A stretch of DNA of 64,000 nt, from positions 62,001 through 126,000 of the forward strand of contig NZ_STGI01000001.1 in NCBI RefSeq assembly GCF_004804275.1, given 5' to 3'. Positions 19,958 through 26,201 of the stretch are shown piece by piece. The first letter of the stretch is position 1, and every line of letters starts with the position of its first letter. The DNA comes from Herbaspirillum sp. ST 5-3 (GTDB taxonomy: Bacteria > Pseudomonadota > Gammaproteobacteria > Burkholderiales > Burkholderiaceae_D). The translations under genes and the position numbers were made by a program. The notes under the pieces are model-generated. The model ran no database searches and was not told the DNA's origin. It saw only the letters and a program-made list of their open reading frames with translations.

Positions 19958-20713
19958 TTGATCATCTACGAATACCCTTTCAACGAGCGTATTCGCACTT
20001 TGCTGCGGCTGGAAGATCTTTACGAAAAATTCATCTTTTTCCTTCATCAAGACCACCCTCAGCAGCATCACATTGCGCTGTCGACAATTTTCGAAATGCT
20101 GGAAGTCGCCGGCCGCGCCGATCTCAAGTCGGATTTGCTGCAGGAACTGGAGCGCCAGAAGCAAACGCTCATCGGATTCAAGTCCAATCCCAATGTATTG
20201 CCGGAGCGCCTGAACGAAGTCCTTGCGGATGTTGACCGCAGCAGTGCGGCCTTGATGGCTGCGCAAGGCAAGACTGGACAAAATATTCGCGATAACGAGT
20301 GGCTCATGAGCATCCGCGGCAGGACCATCATTCCGGGCGGCGCTTGTGAATTCGACCTTCCGTCCTACTACGCCTGGCAGCATCGTTCAGCACAGCAGCG
20401 TTTCAACGATATTTCCACCTGGTTTGCGCCGCTTGTGCCGCTGTTCGATGCGATCGGCGTCGTGCTGCGCCTGTTACGCGAATCCGGTCGTTCCGCAAAG
20501 ACGATCGCGCAGGCCGGCAGCTATCAGCAAATGCTACAAGGCAAGGTCTATCAGATGTTGCGGCTGAGTATTGATGAGACTCTGGGCGCGATCCCTGAAA
20601 TTTCCGCCAACAAGTATATGCTTTGGGTACGTTTTACCTCGCAGGACGGCGACATGAAGCCACGATCCTTCGAGAACGATGTCCCCTTTGAGTTGACCCT
20701 GTGTAATTTCTGA
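19958..20713 (+). CDS. zapD: cell division protein ZapD
   Basis: Cytoplasmic protein (formerly YacF, DUF1342) that crosslinks FtsZ protofilaments at the Z ring. 251 residues, with the characteristic start [23 protein letters not shown] and C-terminal segment [16 protein letters not shown]. The start is TTG at 19958, preceded by AAAGGGA (19944-19950). It is separated from coaE by 136 bases of AT-rich DNA, which probably contain its own promoter (TTGATA near 19859; CATAAT at 19913-19918), and continues into yacG. Confidence 0.95.
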
Positions 20714-20721
20714 GGTGTATT

Positions 20722-20910
20722 ATGGCGACCGTCGTTGATTGCCCGACTTGTGGCAAGAAGGTCGAATGGACCGAGAAGAGCAAGTATCGGCCGTTTTGCT
20801 CCGAGCGCTGCAAACAGATCGATCTGGGCGCTTGGGCGGAAGAAAAATACGCGATCCCTGCTGTTACGCCGCCCAAAGAGGCGGATGACGACAGCCTTCC
20901 ACCGCATTGA
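20722..20910 (+). CDS. yacG: DNA gyrase inhibitor YacG
   Basis: 62-residue zinc-finger protein whose E. coli homologue binds GyrB and blocks DNA binding by gyrase. The zinc ligands are visible as CPTCGKK and [14 protein letters not shown]. It sits eight bases after zapD, as in most proteobacteria, and ends convergent to the TyrR-like gene. Confidence 0.95.
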
Positions 20911-20922
20911 ACTGCACCTGAT

Positions 20923-22476
20923 TCACCGATCCGATCCGGGAATTCCGTATTTGCGAAGCTTGTTCGCAATCATCGAATGCGATGTCTTGAGCCGGGATGC
21001 GAGCTTGCGGCTCGAGGGGTACTGCGGATAGAGCCTCTCGAGAACGGCGCGCTCAAACAGGGCGACCGTTTTGTCCCAATCTTCCGCTTCCTGGAAATGC
21101 GATGAAACTTCCATCGACATGCTGCCTTCGGCAAGGTCGAAGTCTGAAGCATCCAGAATGCGTTGGTCCGTCATCGTGATGGCGCGGAAGACGACATTTT
21201 GCAACTGTCTCACGTTGCCCGGCCAGCCATTGGCGACCAGCGCCGCGCAGGCTTGTGCATTGAGCCGACAAATCGGCTTTTGTGCCTGCGCACAGGCGCG
21301 TTCAATGAAATGGCGCGCCAGCAGCAGAATGTCATCCGGGCGCTCGCGCAGCGACGGTACTTCGAGCTGCAGCACATTCAGCCGGTAGAACAGGTCTTCA
21401 CGAAAACTTCCCTCCGCGACCATTTTCCGCAAGTTGCGATGCGTGGCACTGATGATGCGCACATTCACCTTGGTTTCGCGTTCGCTGCCGATTCGGCGGA
21501 ATTTTCCGTCGTTTAAAAAGCGTAACAGCTTGGCCTGCAGATAGAGAGACATTTCGCCGATTTCATCGAGAAAAACGGTCCCGCCTTCCGCCATTTCGAT
21601 CAAGCCGGGCTTGCCGCCGCGTTGCGCGCCCGTAAAGGCGCCGGACATATAGCCGAACAATTCGCTCTCGGCCAGATTCTCCGGCAGCGAGGCACAATTC
21701 AGCGCAAGAAAAGGAGCGCTTCCACGCGGGCTCGCTGCATGGCAGGCTTGCGCAACGAGCTCCTTGCCGGTGCCTGTTTCACCGACGATCAGCAATGGCG
21801 CGTCCACCATTGCCACACGGGCCGCGCGCGCCTTCAGCGCACGAATCGGCTCGGATTCACCGATGATGGAATCGAATCCGCCACTGGTATGCTGCAGGGC
21901 GTGAAGCCTGCCGCCCAGGCGACGCGGTGCATGCAAGGTAATCACACCGCCGACCGTCTGTCCCAATGCGGAATCAAGCGGCTCCGAAACCGGTGTCACT
22001 TCCAGCAGGAAGGGTTGGCCGTGCAGTCTCACCTCGCGTGCGGGCGCACGAAACCCGCTGCCCAGCAATTCCGTCTGCAGGCCGGCCTCGCCGAACAGTT
22101 CTCGTAGCGTACTGTGATGCAATTGACTCTCATCCAATTCCGCCACGACGGCGGCTGCAGCATTCGCCGCCACAATGCGGCCTTCGGCATCAACCGCCAT
22201 CACCGGATCGGCCATCGCCGCCAACAGGGCATCGAGATGCAAGCGGCGGCGCGCGCCCGGCAGCACGTCGACAACTTTGACCTCCTGCACGCCGGCGACG
22301 CCCATGAAGTCCTCACGCAAGAGCGGCAACATGCTTTCACCGAGTTCAGGAATATCGATGAACACGTCGGAGGAATCGACCTCGACCGCGATCACGTTCA
22401 TGTTCCGACGTGCCAGCACAGCCAGAATCTCATGTGCGATGCCGACGCGGTCGGCGAACTGGACGTCTATCCGCAT
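20923..22476 (-). CDS. TyrR/PhhR-type transcriptional regulator, GAFTGA retained
   Basis: 517-residue regulator with the TyrR layout: N-terminal ACT domain (1-75, DRVGIAHEILAVLARRNMNVIAVEVD), PAS domain (about 80-190), AAA+ domain (about 205-430) with Walker A GETGTGKE and Walker B GGTVFLDEIGEM, and a C-terminal TyrR-type helix-turn-helix (YPSSRKLASRLKTSHSMIANKLRKYG). GAFTGA is intact (SGAFTGAQRGGKPG), as in Pseudomonas PhhR and unlike E. coli TyrR, so it should activate sigma-54 polymerase. Known relatives respond to aromatic amino acids through ACT and PAS. Two genes away, ald carries an exact sigma-54 promoter, making ald a likely target (inference). The ATG at 22476 begins exactly at the ACT domain. 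Confidence 0.9.
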   Translation of the reverse strand: MRIDVQFADRVGIAHEILAVLARRNMNVIAVEVDSSDVFIDIPELGESMLPLLREDFMGVAGVQEVKVVDVLPGARRRLHLDALLAAMADPVMAVDAEGRIVAANAAAAVVAELDESQLHHSTLRELFGEAGLQTELLGSGFRAPAREVRLHGQPFLLEVTPVSEPLDSALGQTVGGVITLHAPRRLGGRLHALQHTSGGFDSIIGESEPIRALKARAARVAMVDAPLLIVGETGTGKELVAQACHAASPRGSAPFLALNCASLPENLAESELFGYMSGAFTGAQRGGKPGLIEMAEGGTVFLDEIGEMSLYLQAKLLRFLNDGKFRRIGSERETKVNVRIISATHRNLRKMVAEGSFREDLFYRLNVLQLEVPSLRERPDDILLLARHFIERACAQAQKPICRLNAQACAALVANGWPGNVRQLQNVVFRAITMTDQRILDASDFDLAEGSMSMEVSSHFQEAEDWDKTVALFERAVLERLYPQYPSSRKLASRLKTSHSMIANKLRKYGIPGSDR

Positions 22477-22613
22477 GGTGTCAGGGTTTCTTCAGATTGG
22501 TTGGGCTGAGTAAGTGCCGGGACTCATCGTCACTTTACCCGCGCACCGGGAAGGCGACAATAGCGTGCGGGAGGCGCGTATGAAAATCACAGTGAACGCG
22601 CTGTCGCGGATTT

Positions 22614-23171
22614 TCAAGCCAGCTCTTGCGCCGGCTCCGGAATATAGGGCCGTGGACCGGAACTGAAACCACGGACCGAACTGGACGAGCCAAGCGCCTT
22701 GAGCCGCCCCAGATCGAAGGCCTGAAGATGCTGCAATACGACCTGGTTGATTTCCATCGTGGCTTGCATCAGCAGGAGGTCGACGTTTTGCTGCGCGACG
22801 CTGCGCTGCTCGTCTGCAGTGGGCTCGGATCTTTTCTTGCGTGACGACGACGGCTCCGGCATGCCGCTGGCGACGCTTCGGAAGATGTCCGCGAGCGTTA
22901 TCGTTCCCAGCATCGAGGAGCAATACCAGGCGTCCTTGTTGTTGTCGTCCTGATGGAGCAATCCGGAACGGTGCAAGTCAGTCAGCAGGCTGCGTATTGC
23001 GCGCGACGATTGTCCAAGTGCGTCTGATAAAGCTGCGGTTGCCACCGGGCGTGGATTGGCAATCACGATGCGGGCCAGCACCTCGATTGCCGTGGAAAAT
23101 CGCGCGTGCAGCTGGCGATCGCCGAGAATAAATTCGTTCATCGCGCCTGGCTCTACCGTGCGTCCGTTCAT
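22614..23171 (-). CDS. Rrf2-like winged-helix regulator without cluster cysteines
   Basis: Transcription factor of about 185 residues. Its first 80 show an Rrf2-type winged helix (RFSTAIEVLARIVIANPRPVATAALSDALGQSSRAIRSLLTDLHRSGLL). The C-terminal half is helical with a basic Ser/Lys stretch and a final Pro/Gly-rich tail. Only one cysteine is present, so it cannot hold an Rrf2 Fe-S cluster as IscR or NsrR do. I took ATG 23171, with AAGG seven bases before it; ATG 23141 is an alternative, and the frame is open to 23330. It lies between the TyrR-like gene and ald on the same strand. Target unknown. Confidence 0.7.
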   Translation of the reverse strand: MNGRTVEPGAMNEFILGDRQLHARFSTAIEVLARIVIANPRPVATAALSDALGQSSRAIRSLLTDLHRSGLLHQDDNNKDAWYCSSMLGTITLADIFRSVASGMPEPSSSRKKRSEPTADEQRSVAQQNVDLLLMQATMEINQVVLQHLQAFDLGRLKALGSSSSVRGFSSGPRPYIPEPAQELA

Positions 23172-23353
23172 GCCAGCGCCTTGTGAAAAGGAAGAATCGA
23201 AAGCTTGATGTTGCGGTGACGTTCCATTTGCAATCCCTTCAAATCGATTACCGGGCAATTCCCTGACTTCGGGGTGTGGACTCAGGACGTGATAATCGCA
23301 AACTCCGGAGAGACGGAAGATGGACGCCACTCCTCGACTGGCGCTTGAGGAAG

Positions 23354-23379
23354 CGGCCAGCCGGTTTCCGGGCTGGCCG
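23354..23379 (-). terminator. hairpin just after ald
   Basis: 9-bp perfect arms (23354-23362 with 23371-23379), 12 bases beyond the ald stop codon. It has no U-run, so it is either a factor-assisted terminator or an mRNA-stabilising hairpin. Confidence 0.4.
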
Positions 23380-23390
23380 TCCTGGATGGC

Positions 23391-24506
23391 TTATTGCAGG
23401 AAATAGTCCGCAGGAACGTATTCGTATCCCAGGTCATGTGCGACCGCTTCGTAGCTGACCTTGCCCTGGCAAACATTCAGGCCATTCTTGAGATGCGGAT
23501 TGTCCTTCAGCGCTTGCCTCCATCCCTTGTCCGCCAGCGCAACGGCGTGGCCGATGGTGGCATTGTTCAGCGCGAAGGTCGAAGTGCGCGCTACCGCACC
23601 CGGCATGTTGGCCACGCAATAATGGACCACGCCGTCGACGAGGTAGGTTGGTTCGGCATGCGTCGTGGCGTGCGAGGTTTCGAAGCATCCACCCTGATCG
23701 ATTGCGACATCGACCACGACCGCGCCCTGCTTCATGCGTGAAATCATGTCGCGGGTAACCAGCTTCGGCGCTGCGGCGCCCGGCACGAGCACGCCACCTA
23801 CGACGAGATCTGCCGAGAGCACCGATTCCTCGACTGTATGGGCGTTCGAATACAGCGTCGAAATGCGATTTCCAAACACCAGGTCCAACTGCCGCAGGCG
23901 ATCGACGTTCTTGTCCAGCACCGTGACGCGCGCACCGATACCGACGGCCATTTGCAGGGCATTGGCGCCCACTACGCCGGCACCGATGATCACCACATGG
24001 CCTGCTTCCACGCCGGGCACTCCGCCCAGCAGCAATCCCATGCCGCCCTTTGATTTTTCGAGATGTGCTGCGCCGGCCTGAATCGACATGCGACCGGCCA
24101 CTTCGCTCATCGGCGCGAGCAGCGGCAGGCCCCCGCCGGGACCGGTAATGGTTTCATAGGCAATGCAGGTCGCGCCGGATTTGACCAGCGCCGCAGTTTG
24201 CTGTGGATCGGGTGCGAGGTGCAGATAGGTGTAGAGGATCTGCCCTTCACGCAACATGGCGCATTCTTGCGGCTGCGGCTCTTTGACTTTGACGATCATT
24301 TGCGCTCGGTCGAAGATTTCCTTCGCCGTGTCGACCAGAGACGCTCCCGCGGCTGCGTACTGCTCGTCGGACAGGCCGATCGCGGTTCCGGCATTTTTCT
24401 GAACGATCACCTGATGACCGCGCGAGGTCAATTCGCGTACGCTGGCCGGGGTCAGTCCGACACGATATTCATGGTTTTTGATCTCTTTTGGCACGCCGAC
24501 TAGCAT
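23391..24506 (-). CDS. ald: alanine dehydrogenase
   Basis: NAD-dependent enzyme interconverting L-alanine and pyruvate plus ammonia; usually catabolic. 371 residues, the family length. The N-terminal AlaDh_PNT domain starts [20 protein letters not shown]. The Rossmann domain has [30 protein letters not shown] (about 170-200), and the C-terminal signature [14 protein letters not shown] is present. The catalytic Lys (VKVKEP) and His (TYLHLAPD) regions are present. A sigma-54 promoter (24618-24633) precedes it, with a 100-base leader. It is in the same direction as the two regulator genes downstream, separated from them by a hairpin. Confidence 0.97.
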
Positions 24507-24617
24507 GTGAACTCTCCTGTTATATGGTGCGCAATAACGCGCTCTGGATTGACTCCACGAAATGCCTTGCCGTATTCGGGCGGAAAGCCGGTTCCGTGGA
24601 TGGCTAAAGTGATATGT

Positions 24618-24633
24618 AGCAACGTGCGTGCCA
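24618..24633 (-). promoter_or_regulatory. sigma-54 (-24/-12) promoter of ald
   Basis: On the minus strand the sequence reads TGGCACG-CACG-TTGCT, a full match to the consensus TGGCACG-N4-TTGCW. GG (24632-24631) and GC (24620-24619) have the obligatory 10-base separation. Transcription would begin near 24606, about 100 bases before the ald ATG. A sigma-54 promoter needs an enhancer-binding protein; the TyrR/PhhR-type protein encoded at 20923-22476 is the obvious candidate. Confidence 0.85.
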
Positions 24634-24907
24634 CATAAATAAGAGCCATTAAATCAATCACTTAGAAATTTGCACGCTGATTCACCGAAGCGAACTGTCC
24701 ACAAATTAATACAGAGTGCCGAACTCCTCCTGATGGAGTCGGCCGAAACTCCTCTGCAGCCCAAGCCCAGGACCGTATGTACAGAATAGAGTACGGTGTA
24801 TTTAATTCAATACAGATGTATTGAAAGGGGAAATGTAATGGAAATGTTCCGCCCGGGAGTGCCCGGAAAGATTGCCAATGCCAGACAGTCGCGCGTCGCG
24901 GTATTCG
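24634..24907. promoter_or_regulatory. ald upstream region with palindrome and TACAGA repeats
   Basis: AT-rich non-coding stretch upstream of the sigma-54 promoter. It holds a perfect palindrome, TTCAATACA-GA-TGTATTGAA (24806-24825), about 200 bases from the predicted start site, a usual enhancer distance. The hexamer TACAGA occurs at 24710, 24780 and 24811. A weaker inverted repeat, ACCGTA/TACGGT, flanks 24772-24797. These are candidate binding sites for the enhancer-binding protein. The A+G-rich GAAAGGGGAAATGTAATG at 24823-24840 resembles a ribosome site but leads into no convincing gene. Confidence 0.55.
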
Positions 24908-25318
24908 CTAGGAACGAAACCGCAATTGATTCAGCCACTCCAGGAGTGGAATGGTGGCAGGCAGCAAGGGCTCGACTTCGAAGCTTCCTTGCCATGCAAA
25001 TGCCTGGCCTTCAAGGCTTTGCGGTTCACCCTGCCAATGCCGACTGATGTAGAAATGGAGCCGGACGTGAGCATGGGGATAAACATACTCAACGCCGCAC
25101 CACGGCTCCGCGGAGAGGACTTGCACGCCGAGTTCTTCGAGAAATTCGCGCTTGAGCGCTTCGAGAATCGACTCACCCTGCTCGACCTTGCCACCGGGGA
25201 ACTCCCAGTACCCCGCATAGGGCTTGCCCTCAGGGCGCTGACCAAGGAGAACGTCGCCATTCGGCTTCATCAAAATGCCAACGGCGACGTCGATTGGTGA
25301 TGCTGGAGAGGAGGACAT
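24908..25318 (-). CDS. NUDIX hydrolase, MutT-like
   Basis: 136-residue NUDIX enzyme, probably an 8-oxo-dGTP or related nucleoside triphosphate pyrophosphatase. The NUDIX box GGKVEQGESILEALKREFLEELGV is complete (about 42-65), and the short single-domain length matches MutT. ATG 25318 lies seven bases after the stop of the ATPase gene; the frame is open further upstream but those residues are the antisense of the ATPase. In Burkholderiales this gene regularly follows the DUF815 ATPase gene. Exact substrate is not readable from the sequence. Confidence 0.9.
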   Translation of the reverse strand: MSSSPASPIDVAVGILMKPNGDVLLGQRPEGKPYAGYWEFPGGKVEQGESILEALKREFLEELGVQVLSAEPWCGVEYVYPHAHVRLHFYISRHWQGEPQSLEGQAFAWQGSFEVEPLLPATIPLLEWLNQLRFRS

Positions 25319-25325
25319 GCGGAAA

Positions 25326-26201
25326 CTATCTGTCGGCTTTGCCCGCATAGTCGCGTGCAAATTGCCATGCCACCCGTCCGGAGCGAGACCCTCGTTGCAA
25401 GGCCCAGCGCAGCGCATCGGCACGTGCGTCTTCGATGTGCTGGTCGCCGCAGCCGAAATGCCGCAGCCAATGCGCGACGATGTCGAGATAGTCGTCCTGC
25501 TTGAATGGATAGAACGATACCCACAGACCGAAGCGCTCTGACAAGGAAATCTTCTCCTCGACCGTTTCTCCCGGATGCAAATCGCCGTCTTCCGTATGCA
25601 CATAGGTCGCGTTGTCGGACATCCTCTCGGGCATCAGGTGCCGGCGGTTGGAGGTTGCGTAGATCAGTACGTTGTCGGACTGTGCTGCGATGCTGCCGTC
25701 GAGCGCCACCTTCAGCGCCTTGTAGCCGCTTTCACCTTCTTCGAAAGACAGGTCATCGCAAAAAATGATGAAGCGTTCCGGCCGCCCGGCGATCATGTCC
25801 ACGATGTCGGGCAAATCGCACAAGTCGTCCTTGTCGACTTCGATCAGGCGCAATCCCTGTGATGCGTACTGGTTCAGGCAGGCCTTGATCAGTGAAGACT
25901 TGCCGGTGCCACGCGCGCCGGTCAGCAATACATTGTTGGCCGGCTTGCCATTCACAAACTGCCGCGTGTTCTGGTCGATCTGCTGCTTTTGTACTTCGAT
26001 GTTGTGCAAGTCGGACAAGGCAATGCGCGCGACGTGCGCGACTGGCTGCAAATGGCCGCGACTGCCTTTTCCGCCTTGCTTGCGCCAGCGGAATGCAGTT
26101 CCGGTATTCCAATCAGGAGTGGGACTTGATTGCGGCAAAATCGATTCAAGGCGCATCAACAGCGCTTCGGCGCGGTCGAGGAACTGGTCGAGTTGCGTCA
26201 T
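25326..26201 (-). CDS. DUF815-family AAA ATPase
   Basis: 291-residue cytoplasmic P-loop ATPase of the widespread but uncharacterised DUF815 family. Walker A is GARGTGKSSLIK (about 93-104) and Walker B is FIIFCDDLSFEEGE (about 143-156). An ATSNRRHL sensor-1-like segment and a C-terminal lid (SGRVAWQFARDYAG) are also present. It begins one base after argJ and ends seven bases before the NUDIX gene, so the three are one operon. No biochemical role is established. Confidence 0.9.
   Translation of the reverse strand: MTQLDQFLDRAEALLMRLESILPQSSPTPDWNTGTAFRWRKQGGKGSRGHLQPVAHVARIALSDLHNIEVQKQQIDQNTRQFVNGKPANNVLLTGARGTGKSSLIKACLNQYASQGLRLIEVDKDDLCDLPDIVDMIAGRPERFIIFCDDLSFEEGESGYKALKVALDGSIAAQSDNVLIYATSNRRHLMPERMSDNATYVHTEDGDLHPGETVEEKISLSERFGLWVSFYPFKQDDYLDIVAHWLRHFGCGDQHIEDARADALRWALQRGSRSGRVAWQFARDYAGKADR

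Follow-up and report, generated by a model that had tools for sequence, protein, structure and literature searches.

The closest described systems link alanine breakdown to sigma-54 or to a TyrR-like activator. In Azospirillum brasilense, dadA mRNA and growth on D-alanine as a carbon source depend on TyrR, according to the portion of the report available to us (PMC6375630), and in Desulfovibrio vulgaris, sigma-54 control of ald (DVU0571) by the activator DVU0569 has been predicted, as far as the accessible text of that study goes (PMC4641369). We analyzed a 64-kb stretch of DNA from Herbaspirillum sp. ST 5-3, here called the window, in which ald follows a sigma-54 promoter and a gene for a TyrR-like protein lies downstream. 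The features of this locus, in the order in which the minus strand is read, are as follows:

24797..24814, minus strand: TyrR-type enhancer box 1, TGTATTGAATTAAATACA, at -181; matrix score 30.4, the best in the window
24778..24795, minus strand: TyrR-type enhancer box 2, CGTACTCTATTCTGTACA, at -162; score 13.4, third in the window
24696..24713, minus strand: TyrR-type enhancer box 3, TGTATTAATTTGTGGACA, 80 bp upstream of the -24 element; score 14.9, second in the window
24652..24664, minus strand: IHF-like site, TAAGTGATTGATT, between box 3 and the promoter; exact match to the IHF consensus, WATCAANNNNTTR
24618..24633, minus strand: sigma-54 promoter (-24/-12) of ald, TGGCACG-CACG-TTGCT (TGGCACGCACGTTGCT); exact consensus
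23391..24506, minus strand: ald, alanine dehydrogenase, 371 aa; TIGR00518, 539.2 bits; fills the slot of dadX-dadA or dadA in most relatives
23348..23383, minus strand: strong hairpin directly 3' of ald, without a clear T run; fold of 23320-23400, -36 kcal/mol, z -3.4
23171..23266, minus strand: probable remnant of the dadA 3' end, 32 codons; 40.6% identity to DadA residues 400-430
22614..23171, minus strand: Rrf2-like protein, 185 aa with the proposed start; PF02082, 26.8 bits, under the cut-off of 30
20923..22476, minus strand: TyrR-like sigma-54 enhancer-binding protein (ACT-PAS-AAA+-HTH by Pfam), the proposed ald activator

The preliminary description had claimed an exact sigma-54 promoter before ald with GG-N10-GC spacing, and an intact GAFTGA loop in the activator, and all of these points were borne out by our analysis. 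TGGCACG-N4-TTGCT is matched exactly nowhere in the window except at 24633-24618 of the minus strand (shuffle mean, 0.02), the GG and GC of this site are 10 nucleotides apart, and GAFTGA was found at 21642-21625. The ATG of ald lies 127 bp downstream of the first base of the site, and its transcription start is predicted near 24607. The ald product scored above the curated alanine dehydrogenase cut-off (539.2 versus 391.85 bits). In the activator, the Pfam domains PAS, Sigma54_activat, lid, and HTH_50 were found in this order above cut-off, with an ACT match just under it (26.2 versus 27 bits). Besides, residues 1-188 match the solved N-terminal part of TyrR and residues 463-512 match the HTH of a TyrR homologue, and the score against the enterobacterial TyrR equivalog model NF008085 was 489.8 bits, under its cut-off of 576.

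The exactness of the sigma-54 match is by itself weak evidence, because four of the seven exact TGGCACG-N4-TTGCW sites in the whole 5.8-Mb genome lie inside ORFs and three outside, by a crude ORF call. With up to two mismatches allowed, 581 and 595 matches were obtained on the genome, compared with 481 and 482 for the reversed control. One of the exact sites outside ORFs, at C5:151543, lies near two divergent activator genes (C5:152375 and C5:154727). The genome contains one match to RpoN. Chance occurrence of the match, with ald transcribed from an ordinary promoter, would fit the share of exact sites inside ORFs; we consider this exceedingly unlikely, since the site and its distance to the enhancer boxes are conserved across relatives, and since a crude sigma-70 consensus scan of 20700-25400 revealed no promoter-like site. 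It is the comparison with relatives, described below, that makes a convincing case for a real sigma-54 site before ald.

For this comparison, we searched 392 genomes, an even draw from the family, with the first 200 residues of the activator. Matches at an E value of 0.001 or better were found in 62 genomes, of which the 55 with an E value below 1e-40 were counted, the other 7 being weak partial matches. All 55 activator loci were inspected with crudely called ORFs; DadX and DadA of one genome (G312) were identified by curated models, and the others by similarity to these. In 50 of the 55 loci, dadA is situated just upstream of the activator gene, and dadX comes first in 42 of these. A further locus, G106, has dadX-dadA downstream of the activator, and only three have ald nearby, i.e., the window genome (G000), its congener G014, and G035 from another genus, in which 3.7 kb with opposite-strand ORFs separate ald from the activator and the upstream region is partly unread. 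Thus, the neighbor of the activator is dadA or ald in 54 of the 55 family loci, the exception being G038. Furthermore, 50 of the 55 stretches have zapD after the activator, and 28 of these 50 contain mutT as well; this company implies that many of the loci occupy the same chromosomal slot as that of the window (argJ - AAA protein - mutT - X - activator - zapD).

In 49 of the 55 activator loci, the 400 bp preceding the first gene contain a sigma-54 site with at most two mismatches (20 exact, 26 with one mismatch, and 3 with two). As for the remaining six, the loci of G012 and G358 are cut off within dadA by the end of a contig, the upstream half of G005 (mutT, box, site, and dadX start) is found elsewhere on the same contig, that of G317 is probably on contig C311, and G106 carries its site and boxes before the displaced dadX-dadA genes. 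G023, with neither a sigma-54 site nor the box pattern, is the sole such case among loci with a readable upstream region. The GAFTGA motif is exact in 48 of the 55 orthologues.

Some individual loci deserve mention on their own. In G038 (stretch L194, 5587-5792), a sigma-54 site and boxes immediately precede the Rrf2-like gene and the activator, as if the enzyme genes had been lost and the switch kept. Two box-like sites directly before the activator gene of G106 (stretch L307, 4674-4710) suggest that this activator may regulate itself. GAFTSA replaces GAFTGA in the activator of G010 (stretch L196), where dadX, dadA, and the promoter are kept, and six other orthologues have GAFSGA (five) or GSFSGA (one).

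Inspection of the 49 upstream regions, that of the window included, led us to the box consensus TGTATT-N6-AATACA, and a matrix was then built from 46 promoters, leaving out those of G000, G014, and G035. When the whole window was scanned with this matrix, the top three scores all fell before ald, the fourth being 9.8. Box 1 is the sole exact TGTATT-N6-AATACA in the 5.8-Mb genome, with four other places at one mismatch; the other two boxes of the ald promoter are imperfect. The palindrome TGTA-N10-TACA occurs in 46 of the 49 upstream regions against an expected 0.17. In the relatives, the boxes lie at approximately -182, -163, and -80 relative to the -24 element, with an outward shift of about ten bases in some promoters, and the ald promoter has the same layout of 18-bp boxes at the same distances. 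A three-box layout (two or more boxes from -206 to -145 plus one from -105 to -68) was detected in 45 of the 49 promoters by the matrix, which had been trained on most of these; G008, G010, G035, and G307 do not show it in full.

The IHF-like site was found in the same orientation in 46 of the 49 promoters (14 exact and 32 with one mismatch), in the opposite orientation in one, and in neither in two, compared with 1% exact and 19% at one mismatch or fewer in shuffles. A strict pattern combining box 3 with the promoter matched at 45 places, in 44 of the 392 genomes, compared with 3 for the reversed control. Judged by their coordinates, 38 of these places are part of dad or ald operons of the same kind, the one on contig C311 of G317 probably is as well, and six lie elsewhere (G028, G341, G117, G300, and one each in G180 and G335); the window is absent from these matches because its box 3 has one mismatch.

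With 22 strong sigma-54 activator domains encoded in the genome, another enhancer-binding protein, e.g., NtrC, might be thought to drive the ald promoter and the TyrR-like protein to be a bystander. We regard this as very unlikely, since the three boxes are of the TyrR type, stand at conserved distances, and lie next to the activator gene. The preliminary description had proposed a sigma-54 circuit controlling alanine deamination, with the ACT/PAS protein as the enhancer-binding protein, and the comparison (54 of 55 loci and a common layout) supports this proposal. The TyrR-like protein would bind as dimers at the three boxes, approximately 90 to 207 bp upstream of the predicted start, and an IHF-type bend would bring its AAA+ ring to the sigma-54 RNA polymerase at 24633-24618. 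The ACT/PAS part would sense an amino-acid signal, most likely alanine, whereupon the promoter would be opened and ald made. Alanine appears to be the likeliest signal because its breakdown is common to nearly all of the loci.

The family of the activator and the type of its boxes (TGTAAA-N6-TTTACA) are shared with E. coli TyrR and Pseudomonas PhhR, as described in the available parts of three papers (PMC6375630, PMC5343134, and PMC4894688). These two regulators differ in acting on aromatic amino acid targets, and E. coli TyrR, unlike the activator in the window, is without the sigma-54 loop according to the accessible text of one of them (PMC6375630). The activator might, by its family, be a PhhR-type regulator of aromatic amino acid metabolism that responds to phenylalanine or tyrosine, the alanine genes being part of a wider regulon. 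In the order outside the family (389 genomes), we found three more strong orthologues of the activator. One of them, G689 (stretch L357, 5602-5873), lends some weight to an aromatic role: three boxes and a sigma-54 site lie between its activator and a divergent gene of 1,197 aa, which by eye we read as an indolepyruvate oxidoreductase. In G499, from another family, dadA is divergent from the activator and has a sigma-54 site and three boxes, and in G662 a sigma-54 site is present, with no box and no alanine gene. An aromatic regulator in the window is unlikely in our judgment, given that dadA or ald is the neighbor in all but one of the family loci and that the sole exact box in the genome is the one before ald. 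Our preferred reading is thus a switch for alanine catabolism, and these outlying loci suggest that TyrR-like proteins of this class can serve other pathways as well.

In most relatives, the switch stands before dadX-dadA or dadA, whose products convert L-alanine to D-alanine and then, in a quinone-linked reaction, to pyruvate and ammonia. In the line leading to the window genome and G014, an NAD-linked alanine dehydrogenase would have replaced these enzymes, the control region staying the same. We consider it highly probable that this locus is an alanine-catabolism switch in which control by a TyrR-like activator and sigma-54 was inherited and ald stands in place of dadX-dadA or dadA. Most likely, the replacement occurred in place under the inherited circuit.

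A probable trace of the former enzyme gene is found between ald and the Rrf2-like gene, where 32 codons resemble the 3' end of dadA and end in a TGA overlapping the Rrf2-like ATG. The profile score was modest in its unanchored form: 2 of 200 shuffles reached it for the window, and for G014 the best unanchored match fell on the opposite, incorrect strand (3 of 200). Anchored at the junction, in tests made after the unanchored score was seen, the score was 39.6 for the window versus 8.6 +/- 3.1 in shuffles (0 of 1,000) and, more weakly, 27.3 for G014 versus 7.9 +/- 3.3 (1 of 1,000), and three genuine dadA tails scored 94 to 107 in the same way. In 2,000 shuffles for the window, a C-terminal match as good was never obtained, and any match as good was obtained 19 times. 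The strong hairpin directly after ald, at which a consensus scan for T-run terminators listed none, is possibly a partial terminator.

The direction of the replacement was probably from dadA, with or without dadX, to ald. Alternatively, ald might have been older in the slot or under sigma-54 control before the genus arose, or several exchanges might have taken place. In the ald protein tree, G000, G014, and G035 are placed among Oxalobacteraceae sequences and group together, in favor of such a history, with a support of 80, which is not firm. We find this history quite improbable, since dadA is present in 51 of the 55 loci and also beside the similar activator of G499 in another family, and since probable dadA remnants lie beside ald. 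The replacement of dadA(X) by ald is the reading that we retain.

The preliminary description had suggested that relatives be scanned for the same promoter next to ald, and we examined other ald loci in a species-level genome collection. Among the best 80 of at least 581 confirmed ald relatives, none had a sigma-54 site (up to two mismatches, the GG and GC being obligatory) in the upstream 500 bp, and none had a match to the Rrf2-like protein; two had a partial activator match, confined to the AAA+ part, and 13 had a divergent regulator read as AsnC/Lrp type beside ald, the neighbors otherwise varying. A promoter common to the ald genes of relatives was thus rejected as an explanation, and the promoter does not travel with ald; this negative result turned the comparison to the regulators.

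Within the genus, full-length ald was found in 2 of the 15 genomes. Operon-type DadA (at least 59% identity) was found in 11 and DadX in 6, neither ald genome being among them, and a distant alanine racemase is present in all 15. The mutual exclusion of ald and DadA is suggestive, with only two ald genomes, and the slot comparison is the stronger argument. G004 has dadA and dadX without the activator, and G007 and G009 are without ald, operon-type DadA, and the activator. Two DadA-like paralogues (43-45% identity) are retained in the window genome, which implies that DadA activity may not be lost. A DadA-like paralogue of this genome, at C6:19678-21155, has a sigma-54 site with one mismatch nearby, on the other strand.

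For the Rrf2-like gene, ATG 23171 is the better start, giving an ATGA overlap as in six relatives inspected. The preliminary description had regarded its product as a possible modulator of the circuit. We recovered the gene in 35 of the 55 activator loci; the layout of the circuit therefore does not require it, and the Rrf2-like protein as a constant partner of the activator was rejected. Fe-S members of the Rrf2 family have three cysteines for the cofactor. The protein in the window has one cysteine, and the other 34 recovered have two to four; most relatives in genus g32 show a C-x2-C-x11-C pattern. It may be that the protein in the window has lost a metal or Fe-S site.

Somewhat more tentatively, we lean toward a broader reading of these sequence comparisons, in which the activators would form an alanine-specific branch of the TyrR-like proteins with a regulon of about one promoter. 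The promoter would then be an exchangeable module, under which, in one lineage, the quinone-linked racemase/dehydrogenase pair gave way in place to the NAD-linked alanine dehydrogenase, while the three enhancers, the IHF-like site, and the sigma-54 site stayed in register and a piece of dadA was left as a fossil. If this is true, an enzyme has been exchanged for an unrelated one that serves the same function in the pathway, with the control region retained, and what a sigma-54 activator senses (presumably alanine) is separable from what it switches on. Besides, the switch would now govern NAD-linked instead of quinone-linked chemistry, a change relevant to energy yield and reversibility, and a branch otherwise annotated as aromatic amino acid regulators would gain a testable motif and target.

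The preliminary description knew of no account of the pairing of ald with such an activator, and this holds in part. Neither ald under a TyrR-like activator nor the swap was found in full-text literature searches, which covered few subscription papers; in a survey of proteobacterial TyrR regulons, neither "alanine" nor "Ald" occurs as a whole word in the main text (PMC5343134), and the accessible portions of sigma-54 literature on Bacillus thuringiensis and Clostridiales and of a 2025 survey revealed no sigma-54 control of ald. The pairing is nevertheless partly precedented by the systems of Azospirillum and Desulfovibrio. The TyrR-dadA system of Azospirillum resembles our locus in its TyrR-like activator with the sigma-54 loop, three TyrR boxes, and -12/-24 promoter, whereas it is found in an alphaproteobacterium, its boxes and promoter lie in an intergenic region shared with the divergent tyrR, and the available text mentions no ald and no swap (PMC6375630). 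In Desulfovibrio, a sigma-54 promoter and an activator gene are likewise beside ald, whereas the control by DVU0569 is a prediction only, the loop is GAFTGG, and in the main text as available TyrR is not named and no replacement of dadA is described (PMC4641369). Pseudomonas GcsR is also a TyrR-like activator for a non-aromatic amino acid, with three 18-bp boxes and a sigma-54 promoter, but its target is the glycine cleavage operon and its boxes read TGTAACG-N4-CGTTCCG, according to the accessible part of that report (PMC4894688). Since relatives of the window genome have dadX-dadA in the slot of ald, what sets this locus apart from these systems is not a new circuit, but the probable replacement of an enzyme under one that already existed.
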